In this document: positions 13 through 41,997 of the stretch, piece by piece
How positions within the stretch are numbered: the stretch's first letter is position 1
Layout: each line of letters starts with the position of its first letter
Translations under genes and position numbers: made by a program
The notes under the pieces: model-generated
Told to the model about the DNA's origin: nothing
The model's database searches: none
What the model saw: only the letters and a program-made list of their open reading frames with translations
NCBI GenBank assembly: GCA_030619925.1
Contig: JAUXAL010000017.1
Span: 1-55,524 of the forward strand
Length of the DNA stretch: 55,524 nucleotides
Source of the DNA: Phycisphaerae bacterium
GTDB taxonomy: Bacteria; Planctomycetota; Phycisphaerae; Sedimentisphaerales; Anaerobacaceae
Direction of reading: 5' to 3'

Positions 13-57
13 ACCCAGCAACGCTGGGTTCCGATTGAAACCCGCCGTTGGCGGGTC
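13..57 (+). repeat. Twin-hairpin palindromic repeat, copy 1
   Basis: Two adjacent perfect hairpins. The first has 7-bp arms ACCCAGC/GCTGGGT around the loop AAC (13-29). The second has 7-bp arms ACCCGCC/GGCGGGT around GTT (40-56). The linker contains CCGATTGAA. The same architecture, with other stem words, occurs at 41955-41997 and inside two genes (26392-26434 and 41682-41724). No T-run follows, so it does not look like a terminator. The remaining bases to 143 hold a short repeat of AGGCACTT and the 3' end of the glycan operon. Confidence 0.7.
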
Positions 58-143
58 AAGCTTCTATGACAAGCATCGATACGAGCATCGACAACCTTAA
101 ACGATGGCCATGAACATTTTAGGCACTTAAGGCACTCCAAAAT

Positions 144-1142
144 TTAGGCACTTTCGGACTTCGATTTCTTTGCCGTTACAGCCCAGAACAGTTGATATAT
201 TGCGCCGATAACAGCCATAAATATCACAGCGGAGAACAATATCATTGACATTAGCAGCGCTTGCGATGTTTCTACACCGTAGAGTGCCAAAAATCCCACC
301 AACGTAAATTCTCTGACACCGAGATTAGCCACCGATATCGGCAGTTTTGCCAAAACATATATAATCGCATACAGCCACACAAATACCCCCAGAGGCACGG
401 TTATGTTTGCCGCTTTAGCAGAGAGGAAGTATATGAACACACCAACACCTAAACCGGCTATTACGGTGACAGATGCAATAGTCAGATGGAACTTAGCTCC
501 GGCAGCTTGAAAGGTCGCAATTTGGTCGAGTATCTCTTGGCTTTTTTGGCGTATTTTTGCGGGAAAAGGCCTTAGCAAAAGCCTGAGACCTTTAATAATT
601 TTGCCGCCTGTTCGGCTGTTCAACAACAATAAAGAAATAAGTATTATAGCTGCCAGCAATATTGAGCAGATAGTCGGCAGCAGCCAACGATTTCTTGTGT
701 TAGCTGTAGGATCGGTAACTATTAAAGCAACGAGTCCGAATACCGTCATAACAAACATCATTGACAATTGGTTGTATAACATACTACTGAGAACGTTGCT
801 TGGCTTTCCGGTACCCTTTTTGAGAATATACCACTTTACTCCCGTGCTCAGTACGCCGGGTAAAATCATGCTGTAAAGGCAGGTAACCGCACTTGCACCG
901 AATATTGTGGCAATATCAACCGTGCAGTCTTGTTTTTTCAAAATAAGCTGCATTTTTATTGAGTTAATCCAGAAAAATATTACGGCCAGTATCCAAACGG
1001 CAATCATGAACTGCGGCCTTGCCGTTCTTACAGTTTGCCAGAATTGCTGAAGGTCAATTCGGCTAAAGACCCATACCAGCAATACTGTTGTGATTAGAAT
1101 TCTGATAAGAAGTTTGGCTAATTGTTTAGTGCGAGTGGTCAT
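144..1142 (-). CDS. Flippase-like integral membrane protein (LPG synthase TM / UPF0104 family)
   Basis: Protein of 332 residues with about eight hydrophobic segments, beginning with a basic N-terminus and a first helix around residues 12-28 (LIRILITTVLLVWVF). The family (lysylphosphatidylglycerol synthase TM region, UPF0104) contains membrane proteins linked to lipid or polyprenyl-glycan transport; the soluble aminoacyl-transfer domain of true MprF is absent. It is the last gene of the minus-strand glycan operon, 13 bp after a methyltransferase gene. The likely role, inferred from the neighbouring glycosyltransferases, is handling of a lipid-linked glycan. The family is clear from the hydrophobic pattern and motifs such as SVANLGVREF near residue 275; the substrate is unknown. 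Confidence 0.75.
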   Translation of the reverse strand: MTTRTKQLAKLLIRILITTVLLVWVFSRIDLQQFWQTVRTARPQFMIAVWILAVIFFWINSIKMQLILKKQDCTVDIATIFGASAVTCLYSMILPGVLSTGVKWYILKKGTGKPSNVLSSMLYNQLSMMFVMTVFGLVALIVTDPTANTRNRWLLPTICSILLAAIILISLLLLNSRTGGKIIKGLRLLLRPFPAKIRQKSQEILDQIATFQAAGAKFHLTIASVTVIAGLGVGVFIYFLSAKAANITVPLGVFVWLYAIIYVLAKLPISVANLGVREFTLVGFLALYGVETSQALLMSMILFSAVIFMAVIGAIYQLFWAVTAKKSKSESA

Positions 1143-1155
1143 ATCCTGTTTTGGA

Positions 1156-1866
1156 TTAGGAGGGCTTTTCTGCGAGAATCAGCACCTTTCTTGAAAAGGC
1201 CAGTTGCATTTTGTAGAGCTTGTAAACAACTTTATTATCCGGGAACCACGCATTAAGCGTGCCGAAAGGTAATCGGCCAGCTAAAGCTGAAACGATAAAA
1301 CAAATGAATCCTGTCAGCGGGCCGCTCAAATAGCAGCTCTTTATATTATTGAAGCCGGTACTAACCAGAAGCTGCTTGAGCCTGCGCCGGGTGGTTACAT
1401 AGTTATGAGAGAAATCACAATTAAAAAAGTTGTGCCGCAGGTTCAAATAATCCGGCGAGCATATTACAAGCTTGCCTTTTGGCTTTAATACTTCTCTTAT
1501 TTGCCCGGCGAGCTGCAGCGCATCCTGCATACTGTTCATATGCTCCATTACATTTATCATCACCACAACATCAAATTCTTTTTCCAAGTCAGGCAGCGGA
1601 GGCACCATTGTACGAACAACATTGGCCCCTCTTTTCTCAAGGGAAGCCGCCATTTGTTCGTTTGGTTCGACAGCAGAGTATTCGATACCTTTCTTAAGGC
1701 AAATATCAGCAAAGACACCCCGACCCGGTCCTATTTCCAGGATGCGGTGGCCCGGCTCTATTTTGGCGTATTTAAAGATTTTTCCAGAGAATACCTCGGT
1801 AATCCAACTGCCTATACCGGTGGGACTGTCCTGGTGAAAGTGGTCATAAAAATATTCTTTTGCCAT
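1156..1866 (-). CDS. Class I SAM-dependent methyltransferase
   Basis: Protein of 236 residues with a class I Rossmann methyltransferase core. Motif I is ILEIGPGRGVFADIC near residues 42-56, followed by an acidic residue after strand 2 (AVEPNEQ) and a VVVMINVMEHM segment like the Methyltransf_11/23 families. It lies between the flippase-like gene and a second methyltransferase, with gaps of 13 and 23 bp, so it is co-transcribed with glycan genes. A role in methylating a sugar or lipid-linked glycan intermediate is inferred from context only. The C-terminal third has a hydrophobic stretch (TGFICFIVSALAGRL) that could bind the membrane. Confidence 0.8.
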   Translation of the reverse strand: MAKEYFYDHFHQDSPTGIGSWITEVFSGKIFKYAKIEPGHRILEIGPGRGVFADICLKKGIEYSAVEPNEQMAASLEKRGANVVRTMVPPLPDLEKEFDVVVMINVMEHMNSMQDALQLAGQIREVLKPKGKLVICSPDYLNLRHNFFNCDFSHNYVTTRRRLKQLLVSTGFNNIKSCYLSGPLTGFICFIVSALAGRLPFGTLNAWFPDNKVVYKLYKMQLAFSRKVLILAEKPS

Positions 1867-1889
1867 AAGAATATACCTCGAACAAGCTG

Positions 1890-2876
1890 TTATGCGCCAT
1901 TAGCTGATTCGCCGCTTACTTTTATTGCACAGACTACCATTATATCCGATTTCTTTAGTAACGATACCGATATTGTCCATGGTAAGAACAGTATCCATAA
2001 TAGAAAAGAATGCCTGAGCCGGTTGCGATATTTTGGATTGATGTTATCCCCGTATAATAAGTATTGTAACGAACCCAGCAGGCCCCATGGAGTTTTGTCG
2101 TATATTATTCTTGTAACCACAAGGCCGTGATTCTCTAACAGCCTTGTAATTGCGCGGGGTGTCCAAATACATAGATGACGTGGGCAATCAAGGTGATACC
2201 ATTTGTCCTTGAAGTGTTTGGCATTGAAACTATTAAAATTTGGGACGCCAATAATGCAATACCCATTATGTTTCAACAAACTGCTCATTCTTGAAACCGT
2301 TGCATGAGGGTCAGATATATGTTCTAAGTACCACCAGGCTGTGATTATGTCAAAATGAGCTGCTGGAAACGGAGCTTCCGTAATAGTGCCCTTGAATATA
2401 TCCAGGCCAAAAGAGCTTTTTGCCTGTCTTCCAGCAGTTTCGGATATATCTACTCCATAGACCTCACAGCCCTTGTCGGTCCTGACAGTGTTCAGGAATG
2501 ACCCTGTACCACAGCCGACATCCAAGATTCGGCTATTTTGGTCGAGCTTGCGATAAATGGTTTTGGCAATTTTTACGTTCATCAGGTATTTCAGGAAGTG
2601 CCCGATAACGGGTATTTTCATAATTTGATTTTGCAATGAACGGATTCTGGAACCTGTCTTTTTTCCTGTCGTGGTATGTGGGGCATAATCGGCAGGATAA
2701 AGTTTTTCTGTGTCTTCCGGCACTACCTGTGGGTTCATGTAGACAAGGCCGCATTCCTTGCACTGTACGTAGGTGAATATATCTCCGATTCCATGTAAAC
2801 GGTCCCTCGCGTCGAAGAGGAAAGTTGAATCCGTGCTGCTGCATAAATTGCATGGGATTTTTTGTGTTCTAATCAT
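1890..2876 (-). CDS. Methyltransferase with N-terminal zinc-ribbon-like Cys4 motif
   Basis: Protein of 328 residues. The N-terminus carries CNLC (residues 9-12) and CKEC (39-42), a putative zinc site seen in many methyltransferases of polysaccharide clusters. A class I SAM fold follows, with motif I ILDVGCGTGSFL near residue 117 and a WWYLEHISDP post-motif segment. The C-terminus has a hydrophobic run (FLLWILFLPWTISVSLL). It probably methylates a sugar or lipid carrier in the pathway of the surrounding glycosyltransferases; the acceptor cannot be predicted. It starts 41 bp after the stop of the upstream GT2 gene. Confidence 0.8.
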   Translation of the reverse strand: MIRTQKIPCNLCSSTDSTFLFDARDRLHGIGDIFTYVQCKECGLVYMNPQVVPEDTEKLYPADYAPHTTTGKKTGSRIRSLQNQIMKIPVIGHFLKYLMNVKIAKTIYRKLDQNSRILDVGCGTGSFLNTVRTDKGCEVYGVDISETAGRQAKSSFGLDIFKGTITEAPFPAAHFDIITAWWYLEHISDPHATVSRMSSLLKHNGYCIIGVPNFNSFNAKHFKDKWYHLDCPRHLCIWTPRAITRLLENHGLVVTRIIYDKTPWGLLGSLQYLLYGDNINPKYRNRLRHSFLLWILFLPWTISVSLLKKSDIMVVCAIKVSGESANGA

Positions 2877-2916
2877 ATCTGTTTTCGCGAAAGGCCAAGT
2901 TGGACATAAAAACCGT

Positions 2917-3858
2917 TTACCACGGCAGCTTTTTAGACCTTACATAACGATGCAACTTTACTACGAGGTTTTTTGCCGGGAGGCAAGTCAAAATCAATCC
3001 TCCCCAGTTCTCGAAAGAACGAGGATATACTTTAACTGCCTTGCAATAATATTTTCTGGCCCGCTTAATATTACCATCGGCAGCGAGCCAAAATCCTGTA
3101 AGAAAGTAAGATCTTGAAAATCGTTTCACTATTTTCTTTCCGATTTTGGCTTGTAATTGGGGATACTTCCGCAGAATCCTTTTTATCGCCATTCTTGTTT
3201 TGGCATAGTTCTTCACCTTATTTGCATTTTTGGAAGTACTGGTTTGATGTCTTCGCCAGCAGCCCTGTGGTTCAGGGTCGTAGTAAACTTTGCTTAAATG
3301 GGCAACTTCTATCCACTTCATATAATCGCTGATTGGGCCGGGCTTTTCAAAAGGCCCCGTTTTTTTGAGCACTTCTGCGCGCACCATTACCGTTATCATC
3401 GGGGTAAAACAGTAGTGCATCACAAGCATCTCCGCCACGTCGCCCGGCACAACAGGATACACATCGCTGAATTTTCCGATTCGGCTGCCTTTCGAGTCAA
3501 TAATCAAAGCGTCGGCAAACACCAATCCCAGCTCCGGGTCGCCGTCGAGTGCGGCAACCTGTTTGGTAAATCTATCAAGCAAAACTACATCATCACTATC
3601 TACGAAACAAATATATTCGCCCTTTGCCAAACCTAAACCTCGGTTTCGGGTGGCGACCACGCCCTGATTTTCCTGGGTAAAAATCTGAGCTCTGGACGGA
3701 AAATTTTTCACTACCTCAACAGTCTTATCAGTACTGCCATCGTCAACAACTATAATTTCAAAATCCTGAAAAGTTTGCTTTTCAAGACTTTTCAACGTCT
3801 CGGCGATATAGTCCTGATGATTATAAGATGCTATTATTACCGACAGTTTTGGTTTCAC
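2917..3858 (-). CDS. Family 2 glycosyltransferase (GT-A fold)
   Basis: Protein of 313 residues. The N-terminal GT2 domain begins LSVIIASYNHQDYIAETL, followed by the nucleotide-binding DDGSTD segment near residue 40 and the metal-binding YICFVDSDD near residue 83. It should transfer a sugar from an NDP-sugar to a glycan or lipid acceptor in the cytoplasm. There are no obvious membrane helices. The C-terminal region has TPR-like sequence (ADGNIKRARKYYCKAVKVYP). It is the middle gene of the operon, 13 bp downstream of the GT4 gene. Confidence 0.88.
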   Translation of the reverse strand: MKPKLSVIIASYNHQDYIAETLKSLEKQTFQDFEIIVVDDGSTDKTVEVVKNFPSRAQIFTQENQGVVATRNRGLGLAKGEYICFVDSDDVVLLDRFTKQVAALDGDPELGLVFADALIIDSKGSRIGKFSDVYPVVPGDVAEMLVMHYCFTPMITVMVRAEVLKKTGPFEKPGPISDYMKWIEVAHLSKVYYDPEPQGCWRRHQTSTSKNANKVKNYAKTRMAIKRILRKYPQLQAKIGKKIVKRFSRSYFLTGFWLAADGNIKRARKYYCKAVKVYPRSFENWGGLILTCLPAKNLVVKLHRYVRSKKLPW

Positions 3859-3871
3859 TGCCAGGTCTCCA

Positions 3872-5011
3872 TCAATTCAGTATTTTGTGGTATTGTTCTA
3901 CATAGCTTAAAGCCACTTTATTCCAACCAAATTTCTCCGCCTGCCTTCTTGCTGCGATGGACATTTGTTTGTGAGCCTGCCGGTCATCAGCTAATTCTCT
4001 TACCGCTTTGGCAATTTGTTCGGCGTTTGCCTGTTCGACTACAAGGCCGTTATCGGCTATCAATTCTTCGGTGCCCTCGCAGCGAGTGGTAATTATCGGC
4101 AGACCGGAGGCCATCGCCTCGAGCATCGCATTACTCATACCTTCGTGCGCGCTGCTCATAACAAAAATATGATTGTCGCGATAAAGCTGCGGCATCCGCT
4201 CAGCAGGAACTGCCCCCATAAAAGCAACGCTGTCAGCGATGTTTAATTGGTCCGCTAATCTTCGGAGCGGTTCCATAAGGTTTCCGTGACCTGCAATATT
4301 GAGCTGGACATCAAGACCGAGCTCCTTTGCCCGGGCAACGGCCCCGATAAGCAAATCTATTCTTTTTCTGCTGATAAGTCTGCAAACCGTAAGCGCCTGT
4401 ATCGGCTTTGTGAGAGTCTGTTTTTCCGAGGGGTGAAATTTTTCCGTGTCAACACCATTGGGTATTACTCTGATATCGAGAGCAGGCATGAACTCCAGCG
4501 CGAGCTTTCGCAAGCCGTTACTGTTGGCCACTACCAGCGCAGCGCCGGACCAAATCCTGCGGAAAAGACCTGCCATCAGCTTATAATCCAGGCCTAAACG
4601 AATATTATAGCCGGGAACATCCGAGCCCCGCAGCGAGATAATGTAGGGCAATTTATCTGCGCTTCGGCGGCACAACCACCCGGTTGGAAAGCCAAAAAAT
4701 GCGTGAACTAAATCATAATTATTCTCTCGCAAAAGTCTGCGGTAACGGAATCGGGCTTTGAAGAGCCATTCGAGCACCTCGGCCTTGCGCCAGAAATGCA
4801 GGTTCTTCTTATGGATACCGACTTTGTAAATAGTGATATTTTCGGAAAAGCTTTCCTTTGAAAAACCCGGCTTCGGTGCTGAAGTCAGTACATCGGCACT
4901 CAACTCGCTGTTGCCGGCGTATTGCCTCAGGAGAGATAGATGTGCGTTAGCCGCTCCACCGCCGATGGGTGGAAATTCGTAGTTGAGCATAAGCAGGTTT
5001 AGTTTCGACAC
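3872..5011 (-). CDS. Family 4 glycosyltransferase (GT-B fold)
   Basis: Protein of about 379 residues. The N-terminus has the acceptor-side glycine loop (NYEFPPIGGGAANAH), and the C-terminal donor domain has the retaining GT4 EX7E region, EGMSNAMLEAMASGLP. Retaining sugar transfer from an NDP-sugar is expected. I chose the GTG at 5009-5011 (product starting MSKLNLLMLNYEF). An in-frame GTG at 5030-5032 would add seven residues but lies inside a palindromic element. No strong ribosome binding site decides between them. The upstream gap is filled by nested palindromes (5023-5104). Confidence 0.85.
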   Translation of the reverse strand: MSKLNLLMLNYEFPPIGGGAANAHLSLLRQYAGNSELSADVLTSAPKPGFSKESFSENITIYKVGIHKKNLHFWRKAEVLEWLFKARFRYRRLLRENNYDLVHAFFGFPTGWLCRRSADKLPYIISLRGSDVPGYNIRLGLDYKLMAGLFRRIWSGAALVVANSNGLRKLALEFMPALDIRVIPNGVDTEKFHPSEKQTLTKPIQALTVCRLISRKRIDLLIGAVARAKELGLDVQLNIAGHGNLMEPLRRLADQLNIADSVAFMGAVPAERMPQLYRDNHIFVMSSAHEGMSNAMLEAMASGLPIITTRCEGTEELIADNGLVVEQANAEQIAKAVRELADDRQAHKQMSIAARRQAEKFGWNKVALSYVEQYHKILN

Positions 5012-5022
5012 AACTATTGCCC

Positions 5023-5104
5023 AAGACCCCACGCAAGGGTTCCCGCAAGGCGGGGTCCCAAATGTGGGGCTAAATATTTAGCCCCGCCTTTTAGGCGGGG
5101 TCTT
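5023..5104. repeat. Nested palindromic element between gt39-like and gt4 genes
   Basis: Outer arms AAGACCCC (5023-5030) and GGGGTCTT (5097-5104) enclose several hairpins. One is a 23-bp unit at 5037-5059 (GGGTTCCCGC...GCGGGGTCCC) that is repeated exactly at 8258-8280. Another is the perfect 20-bp palindrome at 5066-5085 (GGGGCTAAATATTTAGCCCC). A third is CCCGCC-TTTTA-GGCGGG, which competes with it. If the whole element folds, the shape is a closed multi-arm junction. It overlaps the last codons and stop of the GT39-like gene. Confidence 0.8.
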
Positions 5105-6971: not shown

Positions 6972-7963
6972 TTCTTGTCTCCAACGTGGTCGGTGGGGCA
7001 CCCGGATGATTCGAGGATCTCTTTGATGACGTAAGTTGGGCGATCCTGTGATTCGTGGTATGTCCGGACTAAAAGCTCAGCAAGCAGACCCATGAGAATG
7101 AACTGAATGGTGGTAGTAATCAACAAGGCCGTTAGAATCAATAGCGGGTTTCTGTTCATCGAAAGATGCTGGGCAGAGATGAATTTTTGATAGAGTACTG
7201 CCAAGCCGGAGACAAGCGCCGCGAGCGCACTTGCCAGTCCCAGGCCGCCAAAGATATAGATCGGCTTGGTGGAAAATGAGCCGAGGAACTTAACCGTAAT
7301 AAGGTCTAATATCACTTTGAATGTTCGTCCCAGGCCGTACTTGGCGGCCCCGGCAGTTCTGGGTCTGTGGTTGACTACCATTTCGGCGATTCTGGCCCCG
7401 CTCCAGCTTGCCAAGGCGGGGATAAAGCGGTGCATTTCACCGTACAATTTTGTTTCGGCCAGGACCTCTCTGCGGTAGGCTTTAAGTGTACAGCCGAAAT
7501 CGTGGAGTTTGACGCCCGTGATTTTGGCAATCAGCCAATTAGCGATTTTAGAAGGCAATAGTCTGGTGATGGCATTATCGTGTCTTTTTTTTCTCCAGCC
7601 GCTTACGACATCGAAACCCTCGTCGAGTTTGGCAAGGAGCAAAGGTATATCTGCAGGGTCGTTTTGTAAGTCGGAGTCAATCGCGACAATAATTTTTCCT
7701 TGTGCGTGAGTGAAGCCGGCGCTAAGTGCCGCAGTTTGGCCAAAGTTTTTACGAAAGCAAATGACCCGAACTCTGCGGTCAGCCTTTTGCAAACGAGTTA
7801 ACACGGCCAAGCTATTATCAGTGCTGCCGTCATCGACAAATATTATTTCGTAGTTGAATTTGTCTGTTAAAGTCTGCGTGATTTGTTCATAAAGTGGGTC
7901 GATGTTATCGGCCTCATTGAAGCACGGCGCAACTATCGAAACTTCGGGGTTTTGTTCCTTCAT
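6968..7963 (-). CDS. Polyprenyl-phosphate glycosyltransferase (GT2, DPM1/ArnC-like)
   Basis: Protein of 331 residues and first gene of the operon. The GT2 domain opens VSIVAPCFNEADNI, with FVDDGSTDNSL near residue 42 and IVAIDSDLQNDP near residue 91. These match the bactoprenol/dolichyl-phosphate sugar synthase group. Two C-terminal membrane helices (about residues 230-255 and 270-295) anchor it. The expected product is a polyprenyl-phosphate sugar for the GT39-like enzyme encoded next, with which it overlaps by 4 bp. A sigma70-like promoter candidate lies 25-53 bp upstream of the ATG. Confidence 0.88.
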   Translation of the reverse strand: MKEQNPEVSIVAPCFNEADNIDPLYEQITQTLTDKFNYEIIFVDDGSTDNSLAVLTRLQKADRRVRVICFRKNFGQTAALSAGFTHAQGKIIVAIDSDLQNDPADIPLLLAKLDEGFDVVSGWRKKRHDNAITRLLPSKIANWLIAKITGVKLHDFGCTLKAYRREVLAETKLYGEMHRFIPALASWSGARIAEMVVNHRPRTAGAAKYGLGRTFKVILDLITVKFLGSFSTKPIYIFGGLGLASALAALVSGLAVLYQKFISAQHLSMNRNPLLILTALLITTTIQFILMGLLAELLVRTYHESQDRPTYVIKEILESSGCPTDHVGDKK

Positions 7964-7987
7964 AGTTTGCTTCCTATACTAATTGCT

Positions 7988-8016: not shown

Positions 8017-8451
8017 GCCGTAGCTGAGTAGTTAAAAGGGCCCCCATTTTGCAACTTATGACAAAATAGCACCGTAAGGCGTCCCGAAGGGAGACCCAAA
8101 TCGGACTTCGGCGAGACTTCGGCGAGCTCAGTCGAGTCGCTCAGTCGAGCCGGCGCCGCCGGCCCGTTGTGCCCCGCACCTATTGAGCGGAAAAATCCTT
8201 GCTTACCCCGTTAGAAATTGCTATAATAGCGGAATGGCAGGCTTTTAGTGGTGATTTGGGTTCCCGCAAGGCGGGGTCCCTCTAACGGGGCTTAAGAATG
8301 CCCTTTTTGTTAGAATGCGTGTTAGCACGAGAATCGATCGAGAATTGATAGGGCTGTAAACCACGTGGGGTTCACAGCCATAAACCCGACGTGGTTTAGA
8401 GTTCCCAAACGCGAGAAAAAGCGTTTGAGGGCCCCGATTGGAGATGGAAAT
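8017..8451. other. Intergenic repeat-rich region between divergent operons
   Basis: No gene is seen. The region holds tandem duplications (GACTTCGGCGA twice and CTCAGTCGAG twice, about 8104-8150), the palindrome GCCGGCGCCGCCGGC (8149-8163), and a nested palindrome with arms CCCCGTTAGA (8206-8215) and TCTAACGGGG (8281-8290). Inside the last lies an exact copy (8258-8280) of the 23-bp unit from 5037-5059. An inverted repeat with arms TAAACCACGT/ACGTGGTTTA spans about 8357-8398. The promoter of the plus-strand genes was not recognised. Confidence 0.75.
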
Positions 8452-9617: not shown

Positions 9618-9622
9618 TGTAT

Positions 9623-11181: not shown

Positions 11182-11301
11182 GGTGGATGGTGAATCGTGA
11201 ATTCGTAAATCCACTAATGACAGCCGCTTCGCGGCAGCCCAATAGTGGGGTGTATCGCGTAAAGTGAAATACGAAGGGCCCCCGCTTCGCGGGAACCAAA
11301 T

Positions 11302-12228
11302 ATGATAAAGACATTGCGAATAACAAGTGTTGTGGCGGCGATTTTGGCGGTCATTCTCTTTATTTTTCCTGTGGTTTTTGGCGGTCGCAGCGATGAACGC
11401 ATCGAGGGTTTTTTGAATTCGCCCAGTGTGATAGAGAAATTTAACATGTCTATAGGTAACCAAGCAAAGACAAGCGAGAGCCGGAGCTCACCGCTTGTAC
11501 AGCAGGCGACGGCCTTTGCATCGTATCTGAATCCTAAGCCGAAAGAGACTTCGGCATTTCGTGATACGGAGGGTATTACGTCCCTTTCGCTGCCCGTTAC
11601 GCCCAAATTCAGGCTTGTTGCCACCACTTACTATGAGGCACAGCCGGAGCTGTCGCTGGCACTAATTGACGAGCCGGGCAAAGGATTACACTGGGTCAGG
11701 CAATCCAGCAAGGTGGGCCATTTAGTTATTGAGCAGGTAAGAGACAGCCTTGTTGTTGTTAAAGGCAGCAAAGGGACTTTCGAGCTTGCGGTCGAGGAGA
11801 GGCCCCAAATGAGCCTTCTCGAAGGAGCATTCCCTGTTCCCAAAAAGGCAGGCGGCCAAACCGGTTCCAAATCCACTTTAACCGCTCCAGGTAGAACTGA
11901 TGCCGGTGTTACAAGAACAAGGAGCAGCCCTCCGCCGCGGCAGCCAAGGACTGAAAAAAACGGGCGATTGGAGGAGCTCGCCGACAGGCTAAAAGAGATA
12001 CAGACAAGTTTTAAGTCTGACAAGACCGATTCGGGACCCAGCGCCGAAGAAAGGGCTGCCCTGATGGAAAAACTTATTTCCAACTTTAAGTCCTTGCGCG
12101 TAGGTACCGAAGAGGCAAAAAAGCTGGGCGATCTGGGTAAACAGTTGAAAAACGTTCGGGAGGACCCGAATCGGTCGCAGCCGGCAACAAGTGGGGGTAA
12201 AAACAGAAGCAAGCCGGCGAGAAAATAG
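11302..12228 (+). CDS. gspC: Divergent GspC-like inner-membrane protein of the type II secretion system
   Basis: Protein of 308 residues. One N-terminal membrane helix (TSVVAAILAVILFIFPVVF) is followed by a periplasmic region. Residues about 110-165 (FRLVATTYYEAQPELSLALI then SKVGHLVIEQVRDSLVVVKG) have the pattern of the GspC/PilP homology region: a short beta-domain with a 'value, bound state, expression' rhythm. The C-terminal half is charged and helical (ELADRLKEIQTSF; LEKYPR-like motifs are absent) and contains Pro/Arg/Ser-rich linkers. The gene is immediately upstream of gspD, where gspC normally lies. Identity is inferred from topology, the HR-like segment and position; sequence similarity is weak. 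No PDZ domain is evident. Confidence 0.55.
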   Translation: MIKTLRITSVVAAILAVILFIFPVVFGGRSDERIEGFLNSPSVIEKFNMSIGNQAKTSESRSSPLVQQATAFASYLNPKPKETSAFRDTEGITSLSLPVTPKFRLVATTYYEAQPELSLALIDEPGKGLHWVRQSSKVGHLVIEQVRDSLVVVKGSKGTFELAVEERPQMSLLEGAFPVPKKAGGQTGSKSTLTAPGRTDAGVTRTRSSPPPRQPRTEKNGRLEELADRLKEIQTSFKSDKTDSGPSAEERAALMEKLISNFKSLRVGTEEAKKLGDLGKQLKNVREDPNRSQPATSGGKNRSKPARK

Positions 12229-26026: not shown

Positions 26027-27862
26027 ATGCGCGAAGCAAAAAAGAAAATGCCGACATTATACGCAAAATCGAGGAAAAACCCGGTGAAAACGCCGAACAA
26101 AAAAGAAAATACCAAGCTCGATTTTATCCGACAGATTGTTGCCGAAGATTTAAGGACGAATAAATGGGGCGGGCGGGTAGTAACGCGATTTCCGCCTGAG
26201 CCGAACGGCTACCTGCACATCGGACACGCCAAGAGCATCTGTCTGAATTTCGGTATCGCAGCCGAGAACAAGGGGGGCGTCTGTCATCTGCGCTTTGACG
26301 ATACCAATCCAACCAAGGAGGAAGGTGAATACGTTGAGGCAATCAAGGAAGATGTTCGCTGGCTCGGATGGGATTGGGATGACCAGGCCGACCAGGGCAA
26401 AGCCCTGGACCGGATCCCACCTGCCTTCGGCAGGCTGGACCGGATCAAACCGGCCTTCGGAGGGCTGTATTACGCCTCGGACTACTTTGAGCAGATGTAT
26501 GAATACGCTGTGCAGCTTATAAAAAAGGGCAAGGCATACGTTTGCGACCTGACGGCGGACCAGATAAGAGAGTATCGCGGGACGCTGACTGAGCCGGGCA
26601 AAGACAGTCCATATCGCAGCCGCCCAGTTGAGGAGAATCTGGAACTGTTCGAGCGCATGCGGGCGGGCGAATTCCCGAACGGCTCGCGCACCCTGCGGGC
26701 GAAAATCGATATGACACATCCCAACCTTAACATGCGCGACCCGGTGATGTACCGAATCCTGCACGCGACGCATCACCGCACGGGTGATAAGTGGTGCATC
26801 TATCCGATGTATGACTGGGCCCACGGACTTGAAGATTCCATCGAAAGGATTACCCATTCGATTTGTACGCTGGAATTCGAGAATCACCGGCCGTTGTATG
26901 ACTGGTTCCTTGACCAGTTGGATATTTTCCATCCTCAGCAGATCGAGTTTGCCCGGCTGAATCTGACCTACACCGTGATGAGTAAGCGAAAGCTTCTGCA
27001 ACTAGTGCAAGGGGCCAGGGCCAGCGGCTGGGACGACCCGCGGATGCCGACCATATGTGGGTTGCGGCGGCGCGGCTACTCGCCGCAGGCTATTCGGGAA
27101 TTCTGCAGGCGTATTGGTGTCAACAAGTTCAACAGTACCGTCGATATCGCACTATTGGAATACTGCCTGCGGGAAGACTTGAACAAGACCTCTCCGCGTG
27201 CAATGGCTGTCCTTCGACCACTCAAGGTGGTTATCGACAATTATCCACAAGGCCGGGTCGAGGAGCTCGAAGCGGTCAATAATCCGGAAGAGCCCGTCGC
27301 CGGCACGCGAAATGTCCCCTTCTCGCGAGAGCTTTACATCGAGCGGGATGATTTTATGGAGGAGCCGCCGAAGAAGTTCTACCGGCTGTCGCCCGGTCGA
27401 GAGGTTCGCCTGCGATATGCGTATTTTGTTACCTGCAAGGATGTGATTAAGGATGAAAACGGCGAAGTTGTCGAGCTGCACTGCACGTATGACCCCGCCA
27501 CGCGAGGCGGTGACGCTCCAGACGGACGCAAGGTCAAGTCAACGCTGCACTGGGTCTCGGCCGCTCACTCGCTCAAAGCCGAAGTACGATTGTACGACCA
27601 TTTATTCAGCAAGGAGAACCCGGACGATGTGCAGGAGGACGGGGATTTCAAGACTAACCTGAATCCATACTCGCTGGAAATATTATCTTCGTGCCGTGTC
27701 GAACCGTCTTTAGGCCACGCAAAGCCGCTAAGTCGATACCAATTCGAGAGGCTTGGCTATTTCTGTGTCGACCCCGACAGTTCCGGCGGCAAGCTGGTAT
27801 TCAACCGCACCGTCTCGCTTCGTGACCCCTGGGCTAAAATACAAAAAGCGCAGAAGAAGTAG
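26027..27862 (+). CDS. glnS: Glutaminyl-tRNA synthetase with an in-frame repeat insertion
   Basis: Protein of 611 residues. The class I signature reads [20 protein letters not shown] (about 58-77), and the second ATP-binding motif is [10 protein letters not shown]. The family-specific C-terminal anticodon-binding barrels are present. It charges tRNA-Gln directly. Between the conserved WLGWDWDD and [10 protein letters not shown] (residues about 120-146) lie some 27 extra residues ([20 protein letters not shown]) encoded by a palindromic repeat. In typical GlnRS these flanks are nearly adjacent. The start is uncertain: ATG at 26027 or 26048, both in a Lys-rich, poorly conserved region. Confidence 0.92.
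26384..26464 (+). repeat. Twin-hairpin palindromic insertion in glnS
   Basis: First hairpin CCAGGGC-AAA-GCCCTGG (26392-26408), linker ACCGGATCCCA, second hairpin CCTGCC-TTC-GGCAGG (26420-26434). Then the linker and second hairpin recur in degraded form: CCGGATCAAA and CCGGCC-TTC-GGAGG (26440-26463). The span is 81 bp, exactly 27 codons, and corresponds to the extra residues in the protein. Confidence 0.85.
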
Positions 27863-35864: not shown

Positions 35865-35926
35865 TCTTTCCCTTTCTAATTCCAACTTCCAATTCTAAAT
35901 TCCTCTCGAGGTGGCACATAACGATT

Positions 35927-37276
35927 TCACCGCTTTTTCTTTGGTCTCGTGCGTGTTTTCAGCTTCGAGATTTGCTCGCCCATCTGTGAGCGCCATTCGG
36001 CATACATCCCTTCCAGTTCCCCCACCACCCCCGGCCGTTCAGCCGCCAGGTCATGCTTTTCACTGATATCAGCCTCAAGATCAAACAGCTCTAAAGAGCC
36101 TTTTCGAGAAAGGAGCTTCCATTTGCCGGCCCGAACGGCCCACTGCTGGGACCCGTCGTACCAGAAAAGGGCCTTGTGCAGAGGCTCTTCAGCTTCTCCA
36201 CGAAGGGCCGCGAGCATGTCCTTTCCGTCATAGACACGGTCGCCGGGAAGCTCCACGCCGGCTGCCGAAAGGATAGTAGGCACAATATCGACGCTGATAA
36301 CCGGCTCCGAGCAGACCGCTGCCTTCGGCAGTTTTCCCGGCCATCGTACAATAAACGGCACCCGGATTCCACCCTCATAAACACTCTGCTTGTAGTCCCG
36401 CAAAACGCCGTTATTGGCAAAATTCTTTTTGGCGCCTCCGTTGTCCGAGAAAAAGATTACCAGAGTATTGCCGTCGGCGCCGGTCCGCTTCAGAGCGTCC
36501 AGCACTTTCCCAATCGCCTCATCCATACTCGTGAGCATTGCCAGGTAGATGTCCCGGTTCTCATCTCCGGTATTGAAGCGTTTTATATAGTCATCCGGCG
36601 CCTGCAGCGGCCAGTGCACAGCGTTAAAGGGCAGATAAAGGAAGAAAGGTCGCTTATGGTGGCGCTCTATAAACGACACGGCTTGGCGCGCCAGGTTATC
36701 TGTCAGGTAACCCGTATCGTTAATTGGTTTGTCATTGCGATAGATGGAGTTATGTTCGTCCGTTATCTGGAGCTTGAAATAATCATGCGCGCCGTGTCCG
36801 AGGAATCCATAGAATTCGTCAAAACCACGCTGCAAAGGACGATATTCCGGTTCAAGGCCCACGTGCCATTTGCCGACGACCCCGGTGGCATAACCTTCCT
36901 TCTTGAGCAGGTCAGCGACGGTAACTTCACTCAAAGGCAATCCGACCCTGGAATCGCCTCCTGTATAAAAGCCGAACCGCTGCTGATAGCGGCCGGTCAG
37001 CAGTCCGGCCCGAGTCGGCGCACAGACATAGGCGCTCGCGTAACCGTCTGTCAATCGCACCCCTTCGGCGGCCAACCAGTCAATATTGGGCGTGCGGACC
37101 TCCTTCGGATGGTCATAACAGCTTACATCCGCGTATCCCTGGTCGTCTGAAACGATAAGCACAATATTCGGCCGGCTACGAATACCAGCTTTCAAAACCC
37201 GATTCGACAGTATAAACCCGCCTGCCACGCCTGCACATTTCTTCAAAAAATCTCGACGCGTGTATTGTGCACTCAT
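35927..37276 (-). CDS. Sulfatase (GALNS/arylsulfatase-like)
   Basis: Protein of 449 residues. ATG 37276 is preceded by GAGGAG. Signal TRRDFLKKCAGVAGGFILSN; metal site IVLIVSDDQGYADVSCYDHP; active-site motif C-A-P-T-R in AYVCAPTRAGLLTGRYQQRF; then GKWHVGLEPEYRP. These fit the N-acetylgalactosamine-6-sulfatase-like branch. The tail is strongly basic (KTRTRPKKKR). It is the second gene of the sulfatase run, 77 bp after the first. Confidence 0.92.
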   Translation of the reverse strand: MSAQYTRRDFLKKCAGVAGGFILSNRVLKAGIRSRPNIVLIVSDDQGYADVSCYDHPKEVRTPNIDWLAAEGVRLTDGYASAYVCAPTRAGLLTGRYQQRFGFYTGGDSRVGLPLSEVTVADLLKKEGYATGVVGKWHVGLEPEYRPLQRGFDEFYGFLGHGAHDYFKLQITDEHNSIYRNDKPINDTGYLTDNLARQAVSFIERHHKRPFFLYLPFNAVHWPLQAPDDYIKRFNTGDENRDIYLAMLTSMDEAIGKVLDALKRTGADGNTLVIFFSDNGGAKKNFANNGVLRDYKQSVYEGGIRVPFIVRWPGKLPKAAVCSEPVISVDIVPTILSAAGVELPGDRVYDGKDMLAALRGEAEEPLHKALFWYDGSQQWAVRAGKWKLLSRKGSLELFDLEADISEKHDLAAERPGVVGELEGMYAEWRSQMGEQISKLKTRTRPKKKR

Positions 37277-37353
37277 GTCTATTTTCTCCTCATCAAATAA
37301 GGTACAGAGACCCGCCTCCTATTACAATCCGAGTCATGCCCTTATAGTCTTCT

Positions 37354-38724
37354 CTACCTCACCGAATCCAGAACGGTCTGAAGCCTCTTCCCGGCAGCGG
37401 CGGCTTCCGGCCCGGCCGGGTTCGGGTTCTGCTCGAGCACGTCGGCCCGGACATCATAAAGATTGCTGGTAACATAGAGTTTCCATCGTTTGTCGCGCAC
37501 AAAACGCTGCATTTTGCGCCCGCCCCATCTCGAGTCATAATGACAGAATATCCAATCTCTGGGATCGCCTTTTTGGCCGCGAAGCTGAGGCAGGAAGCTC
37601 CGCCCGTCGATTATCATGTCCTCCGGCGGTGAAGCGCCGGTCATCTCTGCAAAAGTCGGAACAAAATCACTGAAATCCACAAGGTCACCGCACACTTTGC
37701 CGGCGGGCACTACGCCCGGCCAGCTTGCGATAAGAGGAACGCGTGTGCCCGCATCAGCTGTATCACCCTTGGCCCCCTGGATGACCCCGTCCGGCATTTT
37801 CGATTTAATGCTCTTATGCGTGCCATTGTCGCCGGTGAACAGAACCAGTGTATTCTCGCGCAGGCCAAGCTCATCCAATTTCCGGACAATTCGTCCCGCG
37901 ATTTTGTCCATGTAACTAACCATATCGGCGAAGTATTTGGTGTTATTCTTGTGTGTCCGTTTTTTCCAGTCTTCGCTGTCCGGCGTGGGAACAAAGGGGC
38001 TGTGAACAAGCGCCATCGGGAAGTACAGGAAGAAGGGTCCGGTCTTGTGACGCTCGATAAAATCAAGCGCATAGTCGGTAAAGACATCGGGGCCGTATTT
38101 GCCTTCGAGGTCCTCACGAGACTTACCGTTTTCAACAATCAAAGGGTCTCTGAAGCGAGGGCCTCTATCGGTTATTTGCCAGAGGCAATACTCATCGAAG
38201 CCGGCCTGGCCCGGCAGGCTGCCGGTGCCGCGAACCTCGGGGGCCTGATTAACACTGCCGTACAACTGCCACTTACCCACAACGCAGGTGGCGTAACCGC
38301 ACCGCTGCAACAAATGTCCAAAGGTCTTCTGCGTCGGGTCGAGAACACCAAAGGCCGTATAGTTGCGGAAGTTGTATTGGCCGGTCATAATCTTCACACG
38401 TGACGGCGTACAAAGCGGCTGTGAATAGCAGTGCTCGAACCGCATACCGGCCCCGGCCAGGCCATCAAGAACAGTCGTCTTATAAGATTCGCTGCCGTAA
38501 CAGCCGAGGCACTCGTAACCGAGATCGTCAGCCATTATCAGGACAATGTTCGGCTTGTTCGCAGCCTTTCCAGCCGCAAACCGTCGAGAGGTGTTCGCAC
38601 ATCCCGGTACGGTCACCGATGCCGCTCCAAGGCCCACGGCCTTGATAAATTCGCGGCGGCTTACCGCGCACGAATTGAGCATAGGCTCACGCCTAATCGA
38701 TGCGGGGTTCATCTTCGGTTCCAT
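37354..38724 (-). CDS. Sulfatase, first gene of the cluster
   Basis: Protein of 456 residues. ATG 38724 has GAGGAGGA eight bases upstream, the strongest ribosome binding site in the run. A 20-residue extension precedes the Tat-type signal SRREFIKAVGLGAASVTVPG plus Cys. Metal site IVLIMADDLGYECLGCYGSE; active-site motif C-T-P-S-R in SQPLCTPSRVKIMTG. It is the closest relative of the 33032-34345 product, including the C-terminal ENPNPAGPEAAAAGKRLQ. The two may have arisen by duplication with others inserted between, or by duplication of a larger block. Confidence 0.92.
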   Translation of the reverse strand: MEPKMNPASIRREPMLNSCAVSRREFIKAVGLGAASVTVPGCANTSRRFAAGKAANKPNIVLIMADDLGYECLGCYGSESYKTTVLDGLAGAGMRFEHCYSQPLCTPSRVKIMTGQYNFRNYTAFGVLDPTQKTFGHLLQRCGYATCVVGKWQLYGSVNQAPEVRGTGSLPGQAGFDEYCLWQITDRGPRFRDPLIVENGKSREDLEGKYGPDVFTDYALDFIERHKTGPFFLYFPMALVHSPFVPTPDSEDWKKRTHKNNTKYFADMVSYMDKIAGRIVRKLDELGLRENTLVLFTGDNGTHKSIKSKMPDGVIQGAKGDTADAGTRVPLIASWPGVVPAGKVCGDLVDFSDFVPTFAEMTGASPPEDMIIDGRSFLPQLRGQKGDPRDWIFCHYDSRWGGRKMQRFVRDKRWKLYVTSNLYDVRADVLEQNPNPAGPEAAAAGKRLQTVLDSVR

Positions 38725-38778
38725 AAAAAGAGTCCTCCTCGTGTTTTTGTCAAGTACTCAAATTAACCGGCCAACTTG

Positions 38779-39114
38779 CTACTTCTTGAGCAGCCACTGA
38801 TGAATGAATGCTGCGACAAACCAGACCGCAAAGCCTGCACATAGCACAAGCCAGAGGGACAGGTGCTTGCGAAAACATATAAAGGCCACAAGAAAAAACA
38901 AAACGGTCGGCACAATGCCCCACAAGGCACCTTTGGTGTAATCGGTCATCAGGTCGAATCTGCCGGGATTATCCAGAGCCAACCAGATAAGCACGATAAG
39001 CCCGGTCAATGGCATTACAGCAATCAGGCCGGCCAGTGTCGGCAGCTTGCGCCCTATCTGAGTGCAAAACACGATAACACATACGCTGACCAATAGCTTG
39101 ATTACAAATCGCAT
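38779..39114 (-). CDS. DUF3147-like small membrane protein
   Basis: Protein of 111 residues with four hydrophobic helices (LLVSVCVIVFCTQIG, GLIAVMPLTGLIVLIWLAL, WGIVPTVLFFLVAFICF, WLVLCAGFAVWFVAAFIH). The pattern and length fit DUF3147, whose function is unknown. I chose ATG 39114 (MRFVIKLL); an ORF extension upstream to 39162 lacks membrane character. It precedes the sulfatase cluster on the same strand by 54 bp. Confidence 0.65.
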   Translation of the reverse strand: MRFVIKLLVSVCVIVFCTQIGRKLPTLAGLIAVMPLTGLIVLIWLALDNPGRFDLMTDYTKGALWGIVPTVLFFLVAFICFRKHLSLWLVLCAGFAVWFVAAFIHQWLLKK

Positions 39115-39235
39115 ATCGACTGTTCTCACGTCGTTACGAGCCAAGTGCTGAACGTCGCACACAGTGGTAGTGTATCCTGCCTTCGACGGGCCAAAATCTC
39201 AAAAATATTCAGCTTTGTGTCTTACGCAGGATTTC

Positions 39236-39694
39236 TTATTTGATAAACCGAATAGTCAACGGATAGCGATAGTGGTGACCATTGTTGGCCTTAACCGCCG
39301 CAATCAACAAAAAGATAAGGTCAACAATCACAACAGCCGCCAGCAGGAAAAAACCAACGCATATAAAAGTCAACACCGCAGAAATAAGCCCATAAATCGT
39401 CATCGAAATCTGGAAGTTCACTGCCTCTTTGCCCTGCTCGTCTACGAATGGGAAGTCATCTTTCTTTATCTGCCAGACAACTAACGGCGCGACAATGTTG
39501 CCAACGAAAGGGATTACTATTCCGGCAAGTCCCGCCAGATGGCAGATCATTGCCCACATACAGGCGTCCTTATTGATTTCTTTGCTCTCCGGAGTCTCTG
39601 GAACAGCTTCCGGCTGTTCCGTGCTTGCTGGCTGCTCTGTTTGCGCGCCGCCGGCATTTTCTTCCGCTTCCGGGTTTTCCTCTTTTTTTGCCAT
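39236..39694 (-). CDS. DUF4870-like membrane protein
   Basis: Protein of 152 residues. An acidic, Pro/Glu/Ala-rich N-terminus (about 1-40) precedes the DUF4870-type domain: MWAMICHLAGLAGIVIPFVG then NIVAPLVVWQIKKDDFPFVDEQGKEAVNFQ, which I recognise in two parts. Three to four helices follow. Function unknown in the literature I know; these are small Tic20-like membrane proteins. It has GGGAG in a good position before ATG 39694. Confidence 0.85.
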   Translation of the reverse strand: MAKKEENPEAEENAGGAQTEQPASTEQPEAVPETPESKEINKDACMWAMICHLAGLAGIVIPFVGNIVAPLVVWQIKKDDFPFVDEQGKEAVNFQISMTIYGLISAVLTFICVGFFLLAAVVIVDLIFLLIAAVKANNGHHYRYPLTIRFIK

Positions 39695-39830
39695 AGTTCA
39701 ACTCCCTTCAATTAAGTTACTTTTGACCTAACAAATCGACCCCTCTTTTAACAAAGGCCCATTACGCCGTCAAGGATAAAAATCTGACCGCCTGGAATCC
39801 ACTCTGGACATCCCATAATTTCTTTATTTC
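39695..39830. other. Gap between the DUF4870 gene and the plus-strand promoter
   Basis: No gene seen; divergent intergenic sequence. A minus-strand open frame at 39748-39984 has no ribosome binding site and no protein-like composition. Confidence 0.5.
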
Positions 39831-39859
39831 TTGACATTTTTCTCTCAATCAGATATATT
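39831..39859 (+). promoter_or_regulatory. Strong sigma70-like promoter of the PEP-CTERM gene
   Basis: Perfect -35 TTGACA (39831-39836), 17-bp spacer, -10 TATATT (39854-39859), one base from consensus. It would start an RNA near 39866 with a leader of about 210 bases before the ATG at 40079. Confidence 0.7.
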
Positions 39860-39865
39860 CTGTTA

Positions 39866-40078
39866 GTATGTAATATCACGGAGGAGTGGTGAGAAGGCCT
39901 TCCATAATTTCCTACCAAGCTTTCCACCGCAAGAAAAAAGTATGGTTGTTTCGGAGTCCAACGGCGACAAGGGTGCAGCCGCAAAACGGTTGGTCAGTGC
40001 GCCCGCGCAGCAAAGGTTTAAACAAAAAGTGGTATTTTGTTGTGAAATATTAACAATTTTTTGAAAGGAGAGATGAAA
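39866..40078 (+). promoter_or_regulatory. Long 5' leader of the PEP-CTERM gene
   Basis: About 210 bases without a gene between the promoter and the start codon. It contains GGAGGAGTGGTG early and a GC-rich segment near 39960-40010 (CAACGGCGACAAGGGTGCAG and GTGCGCCCGCGC) that may fold. I could not match it to a known riboswitch class. The ribosome binding site AAAGGAG (40064-40070) is 8 bp from the ATG. Confidence 0.4.
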
Positions 40079-40866
40079 ATGACTAATGCAAGAACGACAA
40101 TTTGGGTGATGGCAGTAGTACTATCTATGGCCAGTTCGCGCCTGATGGCATGGACGCAATTTAAAGACGGCCAAATACACAATATCGACTATGAAATCAA
40201 CGACGATGTTTGGGTGGATTGGCAAACGCCATTGATGTATACCACCGTAAACATGCCGGCTGGCGGAAGCATAAACTCTCCCTATAAATTGCAAGGGTTT
40301 GAACACAGTCGCATAAATATCTTCGGCGGGTCGATAGGAACTGAGCTACGGGCCTGGCAGCGTACGAAGACAGCCTAGTAAATATCCTCGGTGGCTCGAC
40401 AGGATATGACCTTCACGCCTACGACAGCAGCCAGGTAAACATGTCCGGTGGGTCGATAGGAAAGAACCTATGGGCCTCCGGCAGCAGCCAGGTAGATCTC
40501 TTCGGCGGGTCCATAGGAGGTTACCTGTACGCCTCGGGAAGCAGCCAGGTAGATCTCTTCGGCGGGTCCATAGGCGATGAGTTGATTTCAAGCAGTTCGG
40601 CCATTTTAACAATAGACGGTTCGGATTTTGCGGTCGATGGAGCCCCCTTTGGTTACGGTGAACTTACCAGTATACTTGGCGGTTCCTGGACTGATGAAAC
40701 TTCCAGACATCTGACCGGCACGCTGGCCAGCGGCGAACTGATTGGTAATGATTTTTATATCGGCCACGATGGCAAAATCGTCCTGATCCCCGCCCCCGGC
40801 GCTGTTGTGCTTGGCAGCATCGGCTTAGGTCTTGTCAACTGGCTGCGGAGACGAAGAACACTGTAA
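40079..40866 (+). pseudogene. PEP-CTERM repeat protein, interrupted by an 8-bp frameshift
   Basis: From ATG 40079 a signal peptide (WVMAVVLSMASSRLMAW) and mature part run in one frame to a stop at 40376. The next frame continues to 40866 with 19-residue repeats (SSQVDLFGGSIGGYLYASG) and the sorting tail IPAPGAVVLGSIGLGLVNWL followed by Arg4. Aligning the repeats shows that the unit 40316-40380 is 65 bp while the others are 57, so 8 extra bases (TGGCAGCG, 40355-40362) cause the shift. Without them the protein would be about 260 residues. It would be exported and processed by an exosortase. It may be a true pseudogene, a phase-variable gene or a sequencing error. Confidence 0.82.
40316..40608 (+). 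repeat. 57-bp tandem coding repeat of the PEP-CTERM protein
   Basis: Five consecutive units start at 40316, 40381, 40438, 40495 and 40552. The last three begin with near-identical words such as GATCTCTTCGGCGGGTCCAT; the first unit is 8 bp longer. Confidence 0.88.
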
Positions 40867-40928
40867 GAGCATCTACACAACGCAAAATTGGATAAGGCTG
40901 TAAGTCCCGAGGTAGGCGGGATAAGGCG

Positions 40929-41927
40929 CTAACCGGTGGATTTTCTGTTTTCCCGGCAGAATTTGCCCATCAACTCCATAGCTTTGTTCAGACTTTCAGC
41001 CGAGCCGTCCATTTTCGCATAGGCATCAACCAGCTCCAACAATTCCGCAGCCGGCTCGACCCGACCATAATGGTGCGCAACGTTGACAATGGCCGCATCA
41101 AGGCCGTATTCGGCCGCCTTTGCAACATAGGCCCTGCAGACACCGATCTTTCTACCCGGCCAATCGCGGACACAGTTGCTCACCCCAAGCGAGCAGTGCA
41201 CACCGCTCATTTTCAGGTCGCTTTTGATTTTCCTTATCGTCTCGAACGCCCGGTAGGTATAACCCGGCACATTCGGCTCCATCGGCATATCTATCGCCAG
41301 CGGAAATACGGTCGAGTCAAAGAATATCTCGCCGGGCTTAAAGCCGTACTCACCGACCGCCTTTTCAAAAATCTGCCTCGCCAAGGAATACAGCTCATCG
41401 ACTGAGTGCGAACCACCGGGCCCGACAGGCGCCTCTTTGCCAATCAACAGGCCTATGAAAGCATAGTCGAAATCCTTTTTTAGCGGCAGTATTTTATCCA
41501 TCGTATAAACTTTGACGGAGTTTATGAGCGGCTGTTTGACCTGTGCGTCGGTATTATACCACTCCTTCAACCCGGCTATTAGAACATCATCGCTGCTGCT
41601 GTCGATGCAAACCGGCACACCACCGCCCCACTCGCGAACGAGCCTGACGTATTCGACCATCATATCAACAGCGACCTGTGGCCCGCCGAAGGCGGGATTG
41701 ATCCGGTGCAGGGCTTCGCCCTGCTCGCCAAAGGCATCGAGGTTGACTGCTATGTAATCAGCGCCTTCGCCGGCCTGCGATTCGATTAAGGCCTTGATGT
41801 AATTCAGCGGCTCGCTCGGTGTAGAATAGGCATCAGCACCAAGCTCGCTCAACTGCTTCATTATTCTGCCGGTCTTCGGAATTGAAGCATGGATTGATTC
41901 GCCAATAGCAATAAACGGATTCTTCAT
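40929..41927 (-). CDS. Pterin-dependent corrinoid methyltransferase-like protein with repeat insertion
   Basis: Protein of 332 residues of the pterin-binding barrel group (methyltetrahydrofolate:corrinoid methyltransferases/MtrH and dihydropteroate synthase). Supporting stretches are FIAIGESIHASIPKTGRIMK, VPVCIDSSSDDVLIAGL, and MSGVHCSLGVSNCV with its conserved asparagine. It would move a methyl group between a folate and a corrinoid protein; the corrinoid partner is not in the window. Residues about 68-84 (EQGEALHRINPAFGGPQ) are encoded by a palindromic repeat also found in glnS, between AVNLDAFG and VDMMVEYVRLV. Confidence 0.8.
   Translation of the reverse strand: MKNPFIAIGESIHASIPKTGRIMKQLSELGADAYSTPSEPLNYIKALIESQAGEGADYIAVNLDAFGEQGEALHRINPAFGGPQVAVDMMVEYVRLVREWGGGVPVCIDSSSDDVLIAGLKEWYNTDAQVKQPLINSVKVYTMDKILPLKKDFDYAFIGLLIGKEAPVGPGGSHSVDELYSLARQIFEKAVGEYGFKPGEIFFDSTVFPLAIDMPMEPNVPGYTYRAFETIRKIKSDLKMSGVHCSLGVSNCVRDWPGRKIGVCRAYVAKAAEYGLDAAIVNVAHHYGRVEPAAELLELVDAYAKMDGSAESLNKAMELMGKFCRENRKSTG
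41682..41724 (-). repeat. Twin-hairpin palindromic insertion in the methyltransferase gene
   Basis: In gene orientation: GCAGGGC-GAA-GCCCTGC, linker ACCGGATCAAT, then CCCGCC-TTC-GGCGGG. It is 43 bp of core and shares the linker CCGGATC and the second hairpin loop with the copy in glnS. Confidence 0.85.
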
Positions 41928-41954
41928 CGTGTGGTCCTTAACACCAAATATCTC

Positions 41955-41997
41955 GGCTGGCAGCGCCAGCCAGGATCAGACCCGTCGTTGGCGGGTC
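41955..41997 (+). repeat. Twin-hairpin palindromic repeat, intergenic copy
   Basis: GGCTGGC-AGC-GCCAGCC (41955-41971), linker AGGATCAG, then ACCCGTC-GTT-GGCGGGT (41980-41996) with one G-T pair. The second hairpin matches the copy at 40-56 almost exactly. It lies just upstream of the methyltransferase gene that carries an in-gene copy. Confidence 0.8.

Follow-up and report, generated by a model that had tools for sequence, protein, structure and literature searches.

Palindromes that recur both between genes and in frame within them raise the question of what spreads them and what keeps their stems intact. The question is posed here by a stretch of 55,524 nt from the genome of a Phycisphaerae bacterium (assembly GCA_030619925.1, contig JAUXAL010000017.1; the whole stretch is called the window below), in which a unit of 41–43 nt, made of two short GC-rich hairpins and a linker of ~9–11 nt, occurs four times. 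All four of these twin-hairpin copies are confirmed to be present and are not chance palindromes. We find that the twin hairpins are probably a family of non-autonomous mobile palindromic elements: comparison of orthologous loci shows that related lineages differ in which sites hold a copy, in and outside genes and in either orientation, and that one site is a gain. Repeats that enter genes and spare the gene have been known since Rickettsia. The present family offers many pairs of filled and empty sites, in environmental bacteria known from assembled genomes, together with a measurable insertion rule.

The twin hairpin and its family

An earlier note on this DNA had described two intergenic and two in-frame copies on one plan. 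These copies exist, and their coordinates were refined on a covariance model to those given below, along with their host genes and a longer repeat.

13..55, + strand: twin-hairpin copy, subtype C; intergenic; stems ACCCAGC/GCTGGGT, then CCCGCC/GGCGGG
26392..26434, + strand: twin-hairpin copy, subtype A; in frame in the GlnRS gene; encodes 14 residues
26435..26464, + strand: partial second unit (linker and second hairpin), 30 nt; abuts the copy at 26392–26434; in frame, 10 residues
41682..41724, − strand: twin-hairpin copy, subtype A; in frame in the gene of a pterin-binding enzyme; peptide QGEALHRINPAFGG
41955..41995, + strand: twin-hairpin copy, subtype B-like; intergenic; stems GGCTGGC/GCCAGCC; separated by 28 nt from the start of the gene that hosts the 41682 copy
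26027..27859, + strand: host gene, glutaminyl-tRNA synthetase (GlnRS), 611 aa (reading-frame segment used)
40932..41927, − strand: host gene, protein with a Pterin_bind match, 332 aa, MtrH-like
1..153, no strand assigned: window part of a longer repeat that carries copy 13–55; the whole repeat, ~240 nt, is seen in locus L042

The copy at 26392 is matched by the minus-strand reading of 41682–41724, with CAGGGC-GAA-GCCCTG, a linker containing CCGGATCAA, and CCCGCC-TTC-GGCGGG. The two copies described as intergenic are both so, but 13–55 rides inside the ~240-nt repeat (window 1–153 is 96.8% identical to L042 over 154 nt, and its first 141 nt are identical to the end of contig C101) and so is no clear case of the twin hairpin inserting by itself. 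This longer repeat (L042:1401-1642) resembles a miniature inverted-repeat transposable element (MITE), with ends of the CTAAAGT...ACTTTAG type and 97% identity between two genera, and it sits at the assembly breaks of contigs C62, C63 and C101 of the window's own genome.

As the earlier note had proposed, a covariance model was scanned through related genomes and the places were counted in genes, between genes and by frame. The model, R1, was built from ten aligned copies, four rows of which were N-padded and registered to the structure by hand. On the window's own genome (G000, 4.02 Mb, assembly 92.8% complete) it gave at least 148 matches at E ≤ 1, a lower bound because only 150 of 3649 first-look candidates were scored. 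From 308 kb of fetched stretches plus the window, 189 matches were cut by hand to 136 non-overlapping places by removing opposite-strand and overlapping matches. Copies beyond the first four, whose absence the earlier note would have taken as a refutation, therefore exist across G000 and in its relatives. Of the 136 places in G000, 123 are full-length and 13 partial or interrupted; those at the ends of contigs C62, C63 and C101 have 141 nt in common and may represent no more than one or two copies. A pattern of linker plus second hairpin matched seven times in the 4.02-Mb genome and, reversed, not once. By itself the linker word shows no enrichment in the window (11 matches, one mismatch allowed, vs 14.8 expected). 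The GGATCA-like linker core claimed earlier is usual in G000, where 109 of 123 full-length linkers contain GATC, but not in the related genome G035, where 20 of 45 do. Three subtypes differ in the first hairpin (A, CCAGGGC-GAA-GCCCTGG; B, GGCCGGC-AGC-GCCGGCC; C, ACCCAGC-AAC-GCTGGGT), and the second stem is mostly CCCGCC/GGCGGG. The predicted folds are stable (median z −2.96 over 123 copies), and Rfam gave no match at its curated score for the window and five loci.

The stems covary across copies, so that the second outcome by which the earlier note would have been refuted did not occur either. In the ten-copy alignment, which leans towards structure, 99.2% of cells pair, 7 of 13 pairs are changed on both sides, and covariation is 0.451 compared with 0.127 in shuffles. 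The two ungapped length classes, whose copies were likewise found with the structure model, agree: pairing is 0.969 vs 0.865 shuffled for the 41-nt class (71 distinct copies; 78 vs 21.3 double-change cells) and 0.985 vs 0.791 for the 43-nt class (31 distinct copies; 58 vs 14.6).

With the window's own genome counted, R1 matched 14 of 61 genomes at E ≤ 1e-3 and, with 71 candidates scored per genome, 16 of 90 members of the bacterial family at E ≤ 1e-6. Two related genomes hold at least 53 and at least 25 places, 13 of the other 87 family genomes hold one or two, and bursts occur in G000, G035 and G104. Four further members of the genus of G035 and G104 (G082, G102, G103 and G105) gave no match at E ≤ 1e-6 among 71 candidates scored in each, and in a BLAST of these four with G000 and G035 the element alone was matched in G035 and G000 only. 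A sample of 392 genomes across the phylum, with 16 candidates scored per genome, returned the own genome only; the 21 genomes named by this sweep include no other member of the family. An exact 23-base pattern searched across contigs found 3 loci only, in a scan that perhaps did not take in G000 itself. Several of the single copies elsewhere lie in frame in genes, for example in G011, in a host that is dGTPase-like by its motif, and in G003 and G013, where G000 has copies in the same hosts; for others, among them the copies in G016, G009 and G023, the placement is uncertain or intergenic. In an Omnitrophica record (L049:728-776 and 1064-1098), AGGATCAAA is followed by a GGCG-type hairpin, which looks like the element's second half.

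Filled and empty orthologous sites

The earlier note had held that its claim would suffer if the in-gene segments were present in all orthologues, and they are not. Among the loci returned for the best matches, the GlnRS element is missing in 28 of 29 aligned relatives (56 other genomes matched) and the element of the MtrH-like host in 29 of 29 (52 other genomes matched). The exception for GlnRS is G013, where a diverged copy fills the same site; in the GlnRS tree G013 does not stand next to G000. The GlnRS of G000 is 26 aa longer at the element than that of G035. When G000 hosts were set against their G035 orthologues (identity of 58% or more), the G035 site was empty for 16 of the 20 insertions that could be compared (two of the 16 being the two GlnRS units); three of the other four sites are filled in both genomes (one identical over ~55 nt, one with another subtype, one in the opposite orientation) and one is unclear. 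In the other direction, 10 of 46 G035 copies have a comparable G000 locus, of which 6 are empty, 3 shared and 1 unclear.

The net gain equals the element length minus 4–7 nt in 18 of 20 scored pairs, with gap sizes read off the alignments and two complex insertions omitted (L099 gene 3685, residue 278, and L099 gene 13272). Three close DNA pairs of G104 and G035 sharpen this rule, with 43 nt replacing ~4, 5 and 4–5 nt. The first site (L289) is empty in G035, G102, G103, G105, G082 and G000, the last from another genus, which makes the filled state a gain on the G104 side. The second site, 38 nt longer when filled, is probably non-coding and lies just before a likely start codon. Overall, ~38–39 nt are gained at a filled site and ~4–5 nt of target are gone. 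At the twin-hairpin sites, which this comparison covers, target-site duplication with terminal inverted repeats, the classical MITE/DDE mark, was not found: 4–7 target bases are missing at 18 of 20 sites, and the three close pairs likewise lack target bases.

Copies that are in frame and free of stops persist, adding ~12–13 residues to conserved proteins. We infer that an enzyme acting in trans may recognise the two-hairpin fold, and not the exact stem sequence, much as hairpins of single-stranded DNA are recognised by IS200/605-type enzymes. The stems of an inserted copy would then stay under DNA- or RNA-level constraint.

Copies in genes and conservation of stems

With genes taken from a codon-usage gene caller, 92 of the 136 G000 places lie in genes (52 on the same strand, 40 on the opposite), 42 between genes and 2 at gene edges. 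The in-gene copies are spread over 73 host genes and at many places along the gene. Pfam matches at E ≤ 0.001, some of them below Pfam's own cut-off, were obtained for 43 of 50 host genes scanned, and the hosts include GlnRS, SecA, DnaA and DnaE. Aligned with solved structures, four hosts (GlnRS, SecA, DnaE and an E2 acyltransferase) show extra residues at the element, as does a ROK kinase in one of the two alignments obtained for it; in DnaA the element lies between the ATPase and C-terminal domains. GlnRS, DnaA and SecA are host proteins that would be easy to test. A hot-spot-like cluster of DUF58 and BatA-type genes, orthologous between L099 (G000 C91:3648-20645) and L213/L214 (G035 C153), is rich in twin hairpins in each of the two genomes, although most of their sites do not coincide.

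Measured stop to stop, open frames of 200 residues or more contain 96 of the 123 full-length G000 copies, 35 of the 46 from G035 and 17 of the 26 from G104. These shares exceed the 50–55% expected under frame and stop filtering (p = 1.5e-7, 3.3e-4 and 0.12, respectively) and do not clearly differ from unfiltered random placement (p = 0.083, 0.45 and 0.074), such frames taking up 84% of random positions in the window, with 90% for G000 stretches elsewhere and 81% for those of G035. In genes, both orientations and at least four frames are used: the 85 in-gene full-length copies fall in same-1 (19), same-2 (26), anti-2 (26), anti-0 (9), same-0 (2) and anti-1 (3). The anti-0 frame is rare in genes even though it is open in 117 of 123 copies, which suggests some selection on the encoded peptide.

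Stem conservation was followed at orthologous sites. When 26 G104 copies were compared with G035 stretches by their flanks only, 16 were filled at the same site, 3 were empty and 7 had no usable orthologous flank. In the 16 filled pairs, 6 of 416 stem positions had changed, compared with 10 of 96 in loops, 12 of 161 in linkers and 74 of 785 in flanks, so that stem changes are fewer than those of loops and linkers together (p = 1.2e-5) and than those of flanks (p = 7.7e-9). In two pairs of G000 with more distant genomes, the stems had changed 0 times and once, and the remaining 15 positions 5 times and once. The contrast is the same at fourfold sites, where 3 of 115 changed in stems vs 62 of 335 in flanks (p = 4.6e-6). 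This count uses 17 orthologous pairs, out of 19, that were treated as coding, L298/L210 being a doubtful case among them; in 3 of the 19, G000 is matched with another genome. The low rate of stem change, together with the same contrast at fourfold sites, indicates that the stems are likely under constraint at the nucleic-acid level. The earlier suggestion that pairing is under selection is borne out by the covariation across copies but not by compensatory change at the 16 orthologous sites, where the constraint is seen as conservation of the stems and not as covariation. What holds a dispersed hairpin constant in coding sequence is a question that this conservation at synonymous sites raises.

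Origin of the element and known systems

Several observations weigh against a mobile element whose paired stems are held by selection. None of the six stem changes seen between orthologues is compensated; five disrupt a pair and one leaves a wobble pair. A search bias is possible as well, given that the G035 partners came from 46 copies found with a structure-scoring model, a search in which strongly broken stems may be under-represented; a look by flanks only found no decayed remnant in 19 usable sites, with G035 stretches partly chosen around model matches. The GlnRS of G000 and L056 (2 of 20 scored pairs) fall outside the 4–7-nt rule, and target loss without duplication is unusual for known transposases. 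Some sites are filled in distant genomes too (GlnRS in G000 and G013, L061/L045 and L053/L044), which simple random insertion does not predict. Finally, no mobiliser was found in the eight Y1_Tnp-type loci inspected (4 in G000, 2 of 5 in G035 and 2 in G104; seven with a recognisable gene), and with G000 92.8% complete a gene may have been missed.

The nearest alternative is that the element belongs to the class of repetitive extragenic palindromic sequences (REPs) or of REPINs, the REP doublets that form hairpins, and is mobilised by a REP-associated tyrosine transposase (RAYT), its tag being unusual or lost; we regard this as unlikely. Size, two-hairpin plan, intragenic copies and compensatory changes are like those that PMC3733652 and PMC3116915 give for REP dimers and REPINs, and a short palindromic repeat in high copy number (136 places, two hairpins) shares a trait of the REP class. 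Y1_Tnp-type genes are present (4 in G000, 5 in G035, 2 in G104), a weak model match of 17.6 bits lies beside one of those in G035, and GACG, the complement of CGTC, is seen 9 times at 5' ends among the 136 copies, where the window would lead one to expect ~3. However, most copies are without a GTAG/CGTC tag: in the 10-nt stretches at the ends of the 136 copies GTAG/CTAC occurs 4 times and CGTC/GACG 14 times, and the flank profiles show no tag column. Six of the seven recognisable Y1_Tnp genes are flanked by other palindromes, as judged by eye, one of these being GTAGGGTGGGGC/GCCCCACC, a GTAG-tagged repeat, and the four G000 genes have no flanking twin hairpin and no model match above 9 bits. 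A RAYT was rejected as the mobiliser, Y1_Tnp genes being present without the flanking element at the loci examined.

The RAYT-like genes L193, L194, L195, L274, L276 and L278 have flanking palindromes of their own, of the GTAGGGTGGGGC type and of a CCCC...GGGGGCTAA type, which form a separate REP population in these genomes.

We consider it quite improbable that selection keeps the stems for an RNA-level function of the hairpins in the host, such as a part in mRNA stability or in the pausing of translation. The conservation of stems at synonymous sites within genes and the stable predicted folds would both fit such a role, but copies occur in both orientations, in unrelated genes and at many positions along the gene, are mostly lineage-specific, and are without the Rfam match that was sought for the window and five loci. 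Very improbable, in our view, is an origin by replication errors (quasi-palindrome correction or template switching) that make and keep hairpins with no transposition. Near-perfect pairing with variable stem words and the short target loss at insertion speak for it; one family sequence, in linker and loop words, at unrelated sites speaks against it, as does the L289 site. Self-templated correction should give compensated double changes about as often as reversions, and none was seen at the 16 orthologous sites. An ancient origin of most in-gene copies, followed by repeated losses in other lineages, is scarcely credible and already disfavoured, for despite sites shared across genera (L109/L205, L061/L045, L053/L044 and GlnRS in G000 and G013), 16 of 20 comparable G000 copies are empty in G035, 6 of 10 comparable G035 copies are empty in G000, and the L289 site is equally empty in six relatives.

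Non-autonomous mobile elements thus remain the probable account of the twin hairpins. It is a possible, and tentative, extension of it that they represent an undescribed class of structure-recognised mobile DNA in Phycisphaerae, which would put a two-hairpin unit in the place of a few target bases, largely irrespective of genes, for which in-frame peptide insertion into conserved proteins would be routine, and whose stems would be long constrained at synonymous sites by a DNA- or RNA-level role of the hairpins.

The window holds other repeats besides. Small hairpin repeats lie at 5037-5074, 8258-8295, 11213-11244 and 11271-11302 (GGGTTCCCGCAAGGCGGGGTCCC and a CGCTTCGCGG type), and long direct repeats (D1, D2, D4-D6) between 30000 and 38700 suggest that one type of gene is present there in several diverged copies.

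The literature searched gave no description of this twin-hairpin family, nor any paper in a search for its own words, in keeping with the earlier note, which knew of none. The double-hairpin elements of mitochondrial DNA have a two-hairpin plan that is alike by name, and they differ in belonging to organellar genomes. Those elements are mobile and sometimes lie inside genes. Intragenic palindromic repeats as a kind are already described: PMC3733652 reports intragenic GTAG/CGTC REPs in several phyla and in Rickettsia. In Opitutus terrae, Thioalkalivibrio and others, these REP monomers and dimers lie in frame, sometimes several per gene, as twin hairpins do in frame within genes, and in recB of two Xanthomonas species REPs stand at about the same site (PMC3733652). 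The twin hairpins differ in being mostly without the tag, and also in placement, given that REPs are mostly intergenic in that account whereas the twin-hairpin share in genes is near that of random positions (96/123 vs 84%). In REPINs, as PMC3116915 describes them, two inverted hairpins likewise make one replicating unit and compensatory changes are common in the hairpin; there, however, the units are extragenic and RAYT-associated, neither of which was found for twin hairpins, and here each hairpin folds alone, with a linker of ~10 nt. The likeness to Rickettsia palindromic elements that was drawn earlier holds for behaviour, those elements being palindromes that lie between genes and in frame within conserved genes (PMC10969869 and PMC3733652), and the twin hairpins, too, are in frame in conserved genes and missing from orthologues. 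By description they stand apart: a difference in sequence is suggested by the R. conorii elements examined in PMC3733652, which end in CGTC as the twin hairpins do not, and by the earlier note, which held the two to differ in sequence, and the Rickettsia elements measure ~150 nt in PMC10969869, compared with a two-hairpin unit of 41–43 nt in another bacterial phylum here.

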